Assembly (NCBI GenBank): GCA_004524425.1
Contig: SDNN01000071.1
Span: forward strand, 1 to 11,967
Length of the DNA stretch: 11,967 nt
Direction of reading: 5' to 3'
From: Promethearchaeota archaeon
GTDB taxonomy: Archaea > Asgardarchaeota > Lokiarchaeia > Sigynarchaeales > SOKP01
Positions 5,311 to 11,967 of this stretch are shown here, one piece after another. The translations under genes and the position numbers were made by a program. The notes under the pieces were generated by a model. The model did no database searches. It was not told the origin of the DNA and saw only the letters and a program-made list of their open reading frames with translations. The first letter of the stretch is position 1; each line of letters begins with the position of its first letter.

Positions 5311-7482
5311 TTAGGAAATAATTAATTCAATATGTAATTCAAAGTTCTTGCCTAAGTTCATTCGCGGGATTAAATTTACTCCTTGATATATCTCTTTATA
5401 ACCTTCGTCCGTTTTTGTAAATGAGATTATGGGAAATTTATTAATTGTAAGGTGATTAGTATCAGATGAGAGCAATGCTTCAAAGCTTAAATTGTAGGTT
5501 TCATCACGGGCTTTGAAATTATCTCCAACGTAATGAAATGGCTCTAAAAGATTTTTGTTGGTTTTCTCAAGGTTCACGGATGCAGTCTCCCAGGTAAATT
5601 TATTAGGATCACCATTGAAGAAGAATGGAAGGTCGATAGCTAAATGAAGTTTATCGATTATTCTTTGCAAAATGGCTTCTTCAGCGGGATCCTCTTGAAA
5701 TTTTCCTTTCACGGTAATGATGATTTTATTTTCTTCGACAGATATTCTTTTTAAAATCGTGCATGAAATTTTCTCCTCGGAGTCAGGATCTTTGATGTTT
5801 CCCTCTTTTTCTAATTCGATCAGCGCACTTTTTTCATTTTTTTCATTGGTAACTATTTTAAATTCACCATCTATAAAATCTCCAAATTCATGATAGATGT
5901 CCTTATTCAGTTCTTTCAAGGTCGCATCTTGGTTCATGATTCTCACACGAAGCATGTTCTTTTTGTAGCGATCGGTAATTACTGACCCTGCATCTATTTT
6001 ATCCTTTTCATGATAAGCCTCAGGCCATCTTGTTAACGTATTTAACAAATTATAGGTTCTTGGCTTATAATCCAATTCAAAGATTGTACCACCATCAAAA
6101 GGATCAACATACACGTTTAAAAGATGCGATTCGATCAGGACTTCCAATCGACTATTTTTTGTAAAATCTAATGGTATGAACGTGATATAAGTATCTTTAA
6201 CAGGATAAAGAAGTGGTTTAATTTCATCAATAATGCTCTCTGCTGTAATTAAATGAGTATACACGGAAAATCTTAAAAACTGCAAGTAGATGCCTCCAAA
6301 CAATCCGTGCCAATAACAGTCATTGCATTGAGCTTTATAGATTTCATCCCAAGCTTTATCCAATTTTGGTTTTATTTTTTTTCTTAAATCTGAATCGTTT
6401 GCCGTTTTCAATTTCTCTTCTATTTCAATTAATTTTTCGCGAACATGAAGCATTTTTTTGTGCATGTTGTTTGATTCGGGATACTTGACTAGATAATATC
6501 GCCAAAATCCGCCTTTTAAGAATTGATATTCATTTTTCCTGTTCTCGTCATCTCTCAGTTGTTTCCTTAGTGTTCGAAAATTTTTTCGTATTTCGGTCGG
6601 CAATACCCATTCTTCCATCTTATCATAGCTTGCCGTGGGCAGATAGATCAAACTTTTTGCCGGATATTTCTTCATGTAATCTGATAAGGTTATCGATTTA
6701 ATCCAATCATACTTTAAAATTTTTTCAAAAAATGTAGGAATGAATGGATTGTTATCATCCCCATCCCAATGACCATGACCATCAACATAGCATATTTCGT
6801 GAGTTGAGCCCCATACTCCCATTTTTTCAGCATCGGAAATGAGGAGTGCAATTCTATCTCCCTTATTGTCTGCCATTTTCTCCAAATAATCGAAACTTTG
6901 ATGAGTAGGTTTCCAGGGAGTTAGATACCGGAGTTTTTCGTTTATGGGAAAGATTCTCAAGGTTTTTCCCTCGTCTTCAGTTATATACGTGTAGAATGTA
7001 TCCTCTTCAGTTATCCCTGTTGACCTGAAGTGATTGTCATCTACAATTACATACTTTAATCCAACTTCATTTAGAAAAGAAGGAAAATGAGGCTCCCAGA
7101 CTCTCTCAGATAACCATGCGCCATTAACATCCAACCCAAATTCTTTTCTTATGAGGTCTGATAACTTATTCATTTGCGCAATCTTATCACGATGAGGTAT
7201 GAGAGAAAAAATAGGTTCATAATATCCTCCGCCAATGATTTCAATCTGTCCTCTCCTAGACATTTCTTTTAATTTATTGATGGTATCTTGTTTGTACTTT
7301 AGGAACCATTCTAATAAATTTCCTGAAAAATGGAGAGTGACTTTAAGGTCCGAGAAACTATATATTTGATCGATCAATGGACCATATGCCTTGTTAAAAG
7401 CATCTTCTATAACATGATGAAAATTGTCAACAGGTTGATGAAAATGAAAAACCATGGGTAGATGAATAGATTTTTCTGTCAT
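5311..7482 (-). CDS. GH57 4-alpha-glucanotransferase / alpha-amylase
   Basis: Retaining glycoside hydrolase family 57 enzyme acting on alpha-1,4-glucans: transfer of malto-oligosaccharide units, possibly with hydrolysis. The GH57 conserved regions are all present: HFHQP (13-17), GGGYYEP (84-90), SERVWEP (125-131) with nucleophile E126, SDAEKMGVWG (216-225) with acid/base D217, and YLPTASY (280-286). The nucleophile-to-acid distance is 91 residues, the same as E123/D214 in the Thermococcus litoralis 4-alpha-glucanotransferase. FWRYYLVKYPESNNMHKKML (328-347) and AQCNDCYWHGLFGGIYLQFL are the next family blocks, followed by the C-terminal beta-sandwich (DUF1925/1926 type). At 723 residues it is longer than the Thermococcus enzyme (about 659). 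One visible difference is an Asp/His-rich segment, CYVDGHGHWDGDDNN (231-245), just after the acid/base region. No signal peptide, so intracellular. No ribosome binding site precedes the ATG. Whether transferase or amylase activity dominates cannot be told. Confidence 0.93.
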   Translation of the reverse strand: MTEKSIHLPMVFHFHQPVDNFHHVIEDAFNKAYGPLIDQIYSFSDLKVTLHFSGNLLEWFLKYKQDTINKLKEMSRRGQIEIIGGGYYEPIFSLIPHRDKIAQMNKLSDLIRKEFGLDVNGAWLSERVWEPHFPSFLNEVGLKYVIVDDNHFRSTGITEEDTFYTYITEDEGKTLRIFPINEKLRYLTPWKPTHQSFDYLEKMADNKGDRIALLISDAEKMGVWGSTHEICYVDGHGHWDGDDNNPFIPTFFEKILKYDWIKSITLSDYMKKYPAKSLIYLPTASYDKMEEWVLPTEIRKNFRTLRKQLRDDENRKNEYQFLKGGFWRYYLVKYPESNNMHKKMLHVREKLIEIEEKLKTANDSDLRKKIKPKLDKAWDEIYKAQCNDCYWHGLFGGIYLQFLRFSVYTHLITAESIIDEIKPLLYPVKDTYITFIPLDFTKNSRLEVLIESHLLNVYVDPFDGGTIFELDYKPRTYNLLNTLTRWPEAYHEKDKIDAGSVITDRYKKNMLRVRIMNQDATLKELNKDIYHEFGDFIDGEFKIVTNEKNEKSALIELEKEGNIKDPDSEEKISCTILKRISVEENKIIITVKGKFQEDPAEEAILQRIIDKLHLAIDLPFFFNGDPNKFTWETASVNLEKTNKNLLEPFHYVGDNFKARDETYNLSFEALLSSDTNHLTINKFPIISFTKTDEGYKEIYQGVNLIPRMNLGKNFELHIELIIS

Positions 7483-7745: not shown

Positions 7746-7752
7746 AGGTGAT
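7746..7752 (+). promoter_or_regulatory. Strong ribosome binding site of the BAR-like gene
   Basis: AGGTGAT, complementary to the archaeal 16S rRNA 3' end, sits 4 nt before the ATG at 7757. It fixes the start and contrasts with the sugar genes on either side, which lack such a site. Confidence 0.7.
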
Positions 7753-7756
7753 ATGA

Positions 7757-8434
7757 ATGAGTAAATTTAGAGATAAGTTGAAGGATGTTGTAGGAGGGAT
7801 CACTGATGCATTAAGTAGTTCCGCTACAGCCATCGAAGAAGTAATTAAGGAAAATAAGCAATATCTTGACTCGATTTTAAAAATGGTTAAAGAATCCACT
7901 GAAGGAGTTAATGCCTTAAGAAATTATGCTGAAACTGAGGCCCCCGCCTTAAAGGGTCCGATATCAAAGCTTGCAGAGACTTATGAAAGTCTGGAACAAG
8001 CTAGAAAAGAAAAAACAGAAAAACTTAAAGCAAACTTCATAACTCCACTAGAAGAACTATTGGTCATTTATAAAGAGCTCCGAAAAGAAGTAAAAGAAGT
8101 CGATGCTGCTAAGAAGGATTTAGAAAAAGCAGAGAAGAAATTTGAAAAGGAACGCTCAAAGCCTGAGGAAAAAAAGGATGCTGACAAGTTAGAAGCAGCT
8201 AAACTACATTATGAAGCAGCAAAAAAGGAGCTTGAGGTTCAAGAGAAAGAGGCTGATGCTGCGACCAAGAAATTTGAGGCGGAAAAATCTAAAACCCTGA
8301 AAAACGTTCTAGATAATATTATAAAGACAGAAAAGAATTTTCACGAATCGATGCTACAAAAAATCAAGGAACTAGAGCAAAAAGCTAGTTCACTCGGAGC
8401 TAAACCCACAACAGATCCAACGCAGCCCACCTAA
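7757..8434 (+). CDS. Helical protein resembling an N-BAR membrane-curvature domain
   Basis: A 225-residue, almost wholly helical protein. Residues 1-20 form an amphipathic helix with F4, L8, V11, V12, I15 and L19 on one face and Lys/Arg/Asp on the other, like the membrane-inserting N-terminal helix of N-BAR proteins. Residues 22-60, 66-135 and 140-210 read as three long helices. The second contains LAETYESLEQ (72-81), KANFITPLEELL (91-102) and KKFEKERSK (127-135). In endophilin-type BAR domains, as I recall them, helix 2 carries F-I-x-P-L-x-x-L-L followed by a charged D-Y-D-x-K/R segment, then a third long helix, so order and spacing agree. A flexible Thr/Pro tail ends the protein (214-225). 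No transmembrane segment. Predicted role, by inference: a cytosolic dimer that binds or bends membranes. Alternatives are a generic coiled coil or a PspA/ESCRT-III-like protein, whose N-terminal helix also looks similar. Strong ribosome binding site; T-run terminator downstream. Confidence 0.6.
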   Translation: MSKFRDKLKDVVGGITDALSSSATAIEEVIKENKQYLDSILKMVKESTEGVNALRNYAETEAPALKGPISKLAETYESLEQARKEKTEKLKANFITPLEELLVIYKELRKEVKEVDAAKKDLEKAEKKFEKERSKPEEKKDADKLEAAKLHYEAAKKELEVQEKEADAATKKFEAEKSKTLKNVLDNIIKTEKNFHESMLQKIKELEQKASSLGAKPTTDPTQPT

Positions 8435-10209: not shown

Positions 10210-10249
10210 TATAATATTTAAGTAATTAATCAAATATTTTTCATTGATT
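10210..10249 (+). promoter_or_regulatory. Promoter region of the kinase gene with inverted TTAATCAA half-sites
   Basis: TTATAATATTTAAG (10209-10222) is the TATA candidate, about 38 bp before the ATG at 10253. Downstream of it TTAATCAA (10226-10233) is followed after 10 bp by the inverted TTGATT (10244-10249), placing a putative regulator site over the expected transcription start. The arm is the same as in the GH57 palindrome. No ribosome binding site was seen. Confidence 0.35.
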
Positions 10250-10252
10250 CTC

Positions 10253-11967
10253 ATGGTTGAAAATTTAGATAAAAGCTTATTGCTTAATGTCTTCAATTCT
10301 AATGAATTTAAAGCATGGCTCATCTCTCGGAGATGGTTCGGAGATAAGTCTGCGCTTGCGAATCTGCAGTTTGAAATCTCATTTTCATATTTCCAAATTA
10401 TCGCTAACAGGATCTTCTTGTCTGTCATTCAAATTGAAACGGAAGATTTTAAAAAAGCCTATTTTTTACCCTTGATATATTACAAGAAACTCAAGGATAT
10501 CCTTGAAGATAGCGAACAAATGAGACAAAATGTCGTAAAGCTCACGGAAAACACCTTTACTAAAAAATTATTTTTTGAAAACATGGAGAAAATCTTTACT
10601 CTTAACCTGTTAGAAGCGGAATATTGCATCTTTTTCTGGAAAAAAATGCTCTTTTCTCAGGACATCACGGAAAAATTTCCTTCATTTTCATTGGATCTAA
10701 GCCTGTACACGGAACAATTTGAAGACCAAACAAACATGATGAAAGTACAGAACTTGATAGAAGCCAGTTTATATCAGGAGCGATATGATATTTCTTTAGA
10801 ACAATTAGGAAAGGGAAATACCACTAATCTATTATTTAAATTAAACTTGCATAACAAGAAATATCCTGAAAAAGAACCCATTTCTTATGTCTTAAAATCG
10901 TATAAGGAGTATGCAGAAAGTCTCGAACCCAAAACTCTTTATATTTTAGTGAAAAATGTCTATCCTAACGCTCCAAAAATTTATGGGACCATTAAAATCA
11001 GAGGAAAAGAGTCCATTGGAATTCTCGAAAATGTAACAAATGTCGGTAATGTAGGAGATATTTATTGGAATGAGTTAAATAACATGATTAACGGAGTATT
11101 TAAGGATACTAGGAAAGATTACGCCAATATCGACAGAAAAGAAGAATTTTCAAAACTAATAAAGCAATATTGCATTGAAAGCCTAAAAATCTCTCAAGAA
11201 ATTAGTTCCAACGTAAAAGAACTCCATCAGGCGCTCATTTTAAAAGGGGTTGATGAATATGAGGTTGAACACGTGGATAGCAATGCTTATTTAAATAATT
11301 ATGATGATAAGCTCAATACCATGATTTCTGAAATCCAGAACATGATGAAGAAAAAATCAAAAGACACGTTTTATAACTTGCCGAAAATCAGTTCTATCTT
11401 GCTTGACCTGACGGATATTATCAAAAAATTACATTCTCAATATACCGAAGAAAAAATTAAAATTCAACCCGTGCATCAAGATTTACACATGGAACAAATA
11501 CTCTACGATAAATCCAATGATCATTATACTTTCTATTTTATCGATTTTGAGGGTGATCCTCAATTATCCTTGAAAGAAAAAATGGGAAAATTCCCTATCG
11601 AAAAAGATCTAGCTTCCTTCCTAAGAGCCTTGAGCTATATAAAATTCAATACTTTACTGCTTTTCATAGAAAAGAAAATCATCCACAAGGACAGGTATGA
11701 AGTGCCTCAAGAAATACTCTATAATATTTACTTCAGGAAAACGGCACGACCCATAAATAAGACTCTAGACGTAGTGCTTAATATCCTCAACGCTTGGGAA
11801 GCTAAACTAATGGCTAAGATGCTAAAAGATTCAAATCTACACATTCCCTTGATAACATATTTTTATCTGGAAAGAGCATTGCATGAATTATCCTATGAAA
11901 TTTTATTTCGCCCGAATAACGTGATAGTTCCCTTATTAGGACTTAAAGAAATCATTGATAGAAATTA
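10253..11967 (+). CDS. Maltokinase-like sugar kinase (Mak/Pep2 family), reaching the window edge
   Basis: 571 complete codons, then TA at the edge; this could be the start of a stop codon, so the protein may be essentially full length. Family marks in order: RRWFGDKS (26-33; W-F-G-x-K in maltokinases, in the N-terminal cap), a glycine-rich QLGKGNTTNLLF (185-196), VLKSYK (213-218) with the likely ATP-binding K215, VHQDLHMEQILY (407-418; usually H-G-D-L-H-x-x-Q) with catalytic D410, FIDFEGDP (429-436) with metal-binding D431, KDLASFLRALSY (451-462), and YFYLERALHELSYE (536-549) near the end. Characterised maltokinases make maltose 1-phosphate with ATP for the GlgE glucan pathway; related enzymes phosphorylate glucosamine, so the substrate is not settled. 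It is about 100 residues longer than usual, mainly through an extended N-terminal cap and a charged insert around 335-375. The start has no ribosome binding site. It follows a putative sugar transporter, on the same strand. Confidence 0.85.
   Translation, partial: MVENLDKSLLLNVFNSNEFKAWLISRRWFGDKSALANLQFEISFSYFQIIANRIFLSVIQIETEDFKKAYFLPLIYYKKLKDILEDSEQMRQNVVKLTENTFTKKLFFENMEKIFTLNLLEAEYCIFFWKKMLFSQDITEKFPSFSLDLSLYTEQFEDQTNMMKVQNLIEASLYQERYDISLEQLGKGNTTNLLFKLNLHNKKYPEKEPISYVLKSYKEYAESLEPKTLYILVKNVYPNAPKIYGTIKIRGKESIGILENVTNVGNVGDIYWNELNNMINGVFKDTRKDYANIDRKEEFSKLIKQYCIESLKISQEISSNVKELHQALILKGVDEYEVEHVDSNAYLNNYDDKLNTMISEIQNMMKKKSKDTFYNLPKISSILLDLTDIIKKLHSQYTEEKIKIQPVHQDLHMEQILYDKSNDHYTFYFIDFEGDPQLSLKEKMGKFPIEKDLASFLRALSYIKFNTLLLFIEKKIIHKDRYEVPQEILYNIYFRKTARPINKTLDVVLNILNAWEAKLMAKMLKDSNLHIPLITYFYLERALHELSYEILFRPNNVIVPLLGLKEIIDRN

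Follow-up and report, generated by a model that had tools for sequence, protein, structure and literature searches.

Background

The BAR domain is a membrane-bending module and a hallmark of eukaryotic membrane remodelling. The subject here is a gene very probably encoding a FAM92-like BAR-domain protein, located at positions 7757–8434 of the plus strand in an 11,967 nt stretch of DNA (the window; contig SDNN01000071.1) from a Promethearchaeota archaeon. A FAM92 match of this kind may already be named in the first Lokiarchaeum paper. Among the closest described systems is FAM92A, for which the structure, mutants and the residues involved in dimerisation and lipid binding are given in PMC12269497, together with a protein partner, CBY1, to which it also binds. 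For archaea, three sources credit a putative BAR protein to Lokiarchaeum (PMC4917890), report Vps5-BAR in Asgard genomes, with frequent fusion to Vps28 in Thorarchaeia (PMC10307638), and mention in an introduction that Asgard archaea encode BAR-domain proteins (PMC11791191). A reading of the window made from the sequence alone (the sequence-only reading) had described BAR domains as eukaryotic modules with few reports in prokaryotes; a correction to this is that the first two of these sources already describe putative Asgard BAR proteins. BdpA of Shewanella is likewise a prokaryotic BAR-like membrane sculptor, but its authors state (PMC8687657) that it only just satisfied the BAR models, whereas the family described here passes Pfam cut-offs and is known from sequence and predicted structure.

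Results

Identification of the BAR domain

The open reading frame, whose coordinates include the stop codon, starts with ATG and encodes 225 amino acids. The protein scored above the cut-off for both PF03114 (BAR; 32.4 bits against 28.5) and PF06730 (FAM92; 27.7 bits against 23.6), and when 28 family members were compared at E ≤ 0.001, 15 matched the former and 25 the latter, the scores of relatives to PF03114 including 54.4 bits for a tandem protein and just 19.1 bits for P0018. Database homologues of the window protein numbered 14, at 39–72% identity. The best sequence match in PDB was CIBAR1 (E 1.7e-9), FAM92A being reached at 41.6 bits, and FAM92/CIBAR1 (PDB 9uhd, 8ceg) also heads both lists from the fold searches, with three long helices in a BAR fold. 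At E ≤ 0.1 the profile of the archaeal family matched BAR chains only among 177635 PDB sequences. FAM92/CIBAR1 scored 77.7 bits against this profile and endophilin-B1 25.4 bits, which makes FAM92/CIBAR1, and not the endophilin/GRAF group proposed earlier, the nearest known type; classical/N-BAR domains gave weaker matches, with E from 6.9e-5 to 0.034. When the sequence was reversed, with its composition unchanged, no PDB match had an E below 0.2, and neither BAR nor FAM92 was matched in Pfam at E ≤ 0.1. Since two Pfam cut-offs are passed, homologues are found and the reversed sequence is without a match, the assignment lies above chance, and the Lokiarchaeal gene very probably encodes a real BAR-superfamily domain of FAM92-like type. 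Profiles, a structure prediction and the relatives support what the sequence-only reading had put forward as a condition, namely that an Asgard archaeon has a true BAR fold.

The structure model places helices at residues 2–21, 23–60, 63–133 and 142–213, all coordinates in this paragraph being on the plus strand. Helix 0 (7760–7819) is N-BAR-like and amphipathic, the hydrophobic moment of residues 2–19 being 0.61, a value equalled or exceeded by a fraction of 0.0008 of 5000 shuffles, and it is modelled as a helix with low confidence (predicted local distance difference test, pLDDT, 54–57). Helix 1 (7823–7936) contains Y57, aligned with the dimer residue Y127 of FAM92A as given in the source cited above, and is followed by the junction E61-A62-P63 (7937–7945), where E61 and P63 correspond to E131 and P133. 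Helix 2 (7943–8155) includes P97-L98 (P167 and L168 in FAM92A) and leads into a Lys-rich tip and loop at residues 131–141 (8147–8179), in which K131, R133 and K135 align with R201, R203 and R205. Helix 3 (8180–8395) carries K177 and H196, the counterparts of K245 and H264, and the remaining residues 214–225 (8396–8431) form a Thr/Pro tail ending in KPTTDPTQPT, predicted to be disordered with pLDDT below 50 over 215–225. The amphipathic N-terminus, the three long charged helices and the tail thus agree with the earlier description, as does the block KANFITPLEELL (residues 91–102) followed 25 residues later by KKFEKERSK (127–135). A possible ribosome-binding site, GGTGAT (7747–7752), was spotted by eye 4 bases 5' of the ATG. 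The predicted fold and the N-terminal amphipathic helix are shared with the classical/N-BAR proteins (amphiphysin, endophilin, BIN1; PF03114), but these are farther in sequence than FAM92, and the 225 residues of the window protein hold no SH3 or other domain.

Comparison with FAM92A

Conservation was counted in 40 archaeal rows, consisting of 27 from alignment A4 and 13 locus open reading frames of A3 and including four pairs of identical proteins; the tandem proteins and the distant members L099 and L100 (see below) were left out of these counts. The window protein and FAM92A share 45 identical residues out of 199 aligned. A query with mouse FAM92A finds, in PDB at E ≤ 1, just the two FAM92A sequences, while the archaeal protein reaches FAM92A; by this criterion no other BAR of solved structure is as near to FAM92A as the archaeal family is. 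At thirteen positions the FAM92A residue is also the archaeal majority residue, present in 85% or more of the rows, and E131, P133, P167 and L168 (E61, P63, P97 and L98 in the window protein) are kept in all 40; L099 and L100 are without the E-x-P motif.

The dimer and lipid-binding positions that follow are those given in PMC12269497. Of the eight hydrophobic residues at the dimer interface of FAM92A, seven stay hydrophobic in 90% or more of the archaeal rows, compared with 25 of 50 other hydrophobic positions, the interface residue L120 being lost. The inter-subunit salt bridge E131-K245 (E61 and K177 in the window protein) is retained, with E in 40/40 rows and K or R in 39/39, while other polar interface contacts (e.g. 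E123, H95 and K247) are lost across most of the family. On the membrane face, the arm-tip residues R201, R203 and R205 are basic in 40/40, 34/40 and 40/40 rows; K176, K183 and K194 are basic in 34/40, 35/40 and 30/40. The central concave patch is different: basic residues are found at R108 in 1/39, K109 in 0/39, R112 in 24/39, R114 in 0/40 and K116 in 0/40 rows, K42 (for R112) being the sole basic residue of the window protein at the central lipid-binding positions of the mouse protein. K169, R179 and K178 are basic in 2/40, 1/40 and 16/40 rows, the two tested positions of region 5 in none, and taken together basic residues are retained no better at lipid-binding positions (6/16) than at other basic positions (6/17). 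The archaeal protein thus has the helix layout, the E-x-P and PL residues, the E131-K245 pair and the arm-tip basic residues of FAM92/CIBAR1 but is missing its central concave basic patch, and because these lipid-binding residues are not kept it is regarded as a FAM92-like member of the BAR superfamily and not as a FAM92 orthologue. To our knowledge, neither the CBY1 partner nor cilia are known from archaea.

Distribution and family diversity

The search for Asgard orthologues proposed earlier was performed in 227 genomes of the phylum, whose completeness is unstated, so that an absence is no proof. The A1 profile matches 21 of them and the A3 profile 24 at E ≤ 0.001, all 24 belonging to a single class, represented by 83 genomes, which has a Lokiarchaeota genome (G007) as its centre and includes Helarchaeota and Sigynarchaeota; no A3 match appeared in the other 144 genomes. 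Over the family cut-off, the counts in the 227 genomes were 15 for FAM92 and 4 for BAR. Included in the 24 are a contig-edge fragment (G120) and a match of just 37 residues scoring 31.6 bits (G121); in G096 the matched region is interrupted by one TGA and one TAG, and four further matches contain one or two TAA, perhaps with the match running beyond the gene end. A control of 301 genomes from the Chloroflexi phylum gave 4 matches, in 4 genomes, of 42–44 residues and ~20 bits (E 5e-4 to 8e-4).

Natural two-domain tandem BAR proteins of 444–461 residues were found in Ca. Harpocratesius sp. and relatives (L116:6685–8058 in G100, and P0028–P0032); the structure prediction of the tandem form has a predicted template modelling score of 0.77, and the protein is possibly a covalent pseudo-dimer. 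A distant subfamily (L099 in G104, L100 in G103, also G096 and G097) has A3 profile scores of 50–76 bits; neither L099 nor L100 gave a Pfam BAR match, and the genomes G103 and G104 have neighbour genes in common. Other Asgard genomes (G201, G205, G195 and G200) contain open reading frames of 411–466 residues with BAR matches below cut-off (L107, L109, L110 and L112). Of the two that were scanned, L107 weakly matches VPS28 and L110 weakly matches BAR, and they resemble the reported Vps28/Vps5-BAR fusions. As BAR-type proteins of Asgard archaea, Vps5-BAR proteins are comparable to the present family, but the candidates L107 and L110 have sub-cut-off matches only and their genomes lie outside the class of 83.

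Genomic neighbourhood

The BAR gene adjoins a gene for a GH57 protein (5311–7482, minus strand), whose closest relatives come from Lokiarchaeota assemblies and reach 67% identity; of 58 loci with a related GH57 gene, 55 are recorded as Lokiarchaeota/Lokiarchaeia and one each as Helarchaeota, Sigynarchaeota and Chloroflexi. GH57 forms a divergent pair with a maltokinase-like gene (10244–11965; below the NCBIfam cut-off). Many Lokiarchaeal loci share this pair, and among 45 relatives in which its spacing could be measured the pair is separated by at most 300 bp in 25, by 301–2000 bp in 13 and by more in 7. In the window the two genes lie 2761 bp apart, with the BAR gene and one for an MFS symporter between them; the gap contains an MFS gene in L003 and L004 as well. 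No copy of the BAR gene was found in the 58 GH57 loci (tblastn, E ≤ 1e-8), and in G007 and G011 the pair is 91 and 152 bp apart (L027 and L050) with the BAR gene located elsewhere. The neighbourhood is thus uninformative on function and suggests that the BAR gene has moved. At the window edge, an open-ended gene (3–2012) encodes at least 670 residues, with no Pfam or NCBIfam match above cut-off, and tblastn against the 58 GH57 loci gave no match either.

Discussion

The results point with good confidence to a compact Lokiarchaeal BAR protein, homologous to eukaryotic BAR domains and closest in sequence to FAM92/CIBAR1 among solved structures, which likely forms a homodimer that senses or stabilises curvature at the inner face of the membrane. 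Homology, predicted fold, conservation and distribution are computed, while dimerisation, membrane binding, the sign of curvature and the cellular role are what we infer. The predicted chain begins with the amphipathic helix 0, continues with a BAR coiled coil of three helices and ends in a short tail without ordered structure. Two such chains most likely pair in antiparallel orientation on the inner side of the cell membrane. Because the tips are basic and the central patch is lost, contact with the membrane would be made by the arm tips and helix 0 and not by the middle of the crescent, with the lysine-rich tips binding acidic lipids and helix 0 inserting shallowly. The outcome may be the sensing or stabilising of curvature, e.g. 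in blebs, vesicles or protrusions.

The sequence-only reading had warned that a generic Lys/Glu-rich coiled coil can imitate BAR matches, and several observations fit this: 92 of the 225 residues are charged, Pfam matches below cut-off include DUF4618 (0.0074), KIF9 (0.019) and Fib_alpha (0.023), NCBIfam matches (SMC and others) lie far below cut-off, coronavirus spike fragments occur among the PDB matches (best 1e-5), some of the 28 members match DUF4398 (3), talin-like (2), ATG17-like (1) or Mce4 (1) families at E ≤ 0.001, and the source annotation of one relative is 'chromosome segregation ATPase'. A mere coiled coil is nevertheless very unlikely, as the family profile singles out BAR chains, the match vanishes on reversal, the four invariant residues coincide with FAM92A and the Chloroflexi control yielded just short stretches. 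It is hardly conceivable that the protein belongs to the PspA/ESCRT-III type, which likewise comprises long-helical archaeal membrane remodellers; in the Pfam scan BAR was over its cut-off, and the list of 13 families contained neither PspA_IM30 nor Snf7 (matches requested up to E 1, with filters removing most above 0.1). Rather improbable is a true BAR fold that has ceased to bend membranes and instead scaffolds proteins or binds the membrane as a flat dimer. The loss of the central basic patch, the balanced charge of the window protein and the CBY1 partner of FAM92A (PMC12269497) would suit such a role, but the conserved basic arm tips and helix 0 suit membrane contact.

The origin of the gene is a separate matter, and a real though not favoured possibility, compatible with the curvature-related homodimer, is that a BAR gene of FAM92-like type passed from a eukaryote into a Lokiarchaeal lineage and was then spread patchily. 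This would agree with the presence in 24 of the 83 genomes of one class and in none of the other 144 of the phylum, with the position of the BAR and MFS genes between two genes often closely spaced in relatives, and with the sequence of FAM92 differing less from the archaeal proteins than from the other solved BARs. On the other hand, members of the archaeal family vary widely, identity with the window protein falling to 26%, and they include a branch of tandem proteins and a remote subfamily; the FAM92A branch, 3 changes per site long, joins outside all archaeal rows in a midpoint-rooted tree with two FAM92 rows, flagged for long branches and unlike composition. The converse history is a tentative and rather unlikely one, in which the FAM92-type BAR would predate eukaryotes, these having inherited a homodimeric protein of this kind from an archaeal ancestor and Lokiarchaea still using it, in one lineage as a covalently linked two-domain pseudo-dimer, to shape plasma-membrane protrusions and vesicles. 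The confinement to one class limits simple scenarios of inheritance.

The earlier Asgard reports cited here concerned a putative BAR (PMC4917890) or Vps5-BAR (PMC10307638). The present family passes the Pfam cut-offs, has one particular counterpart in eukaryotes, with dimer residues that match, and comprises a tandem form that lends itself to purification as a single chain; because of these the function of archaeal BAR proteins and the origin of the BAR domain become directly testable.
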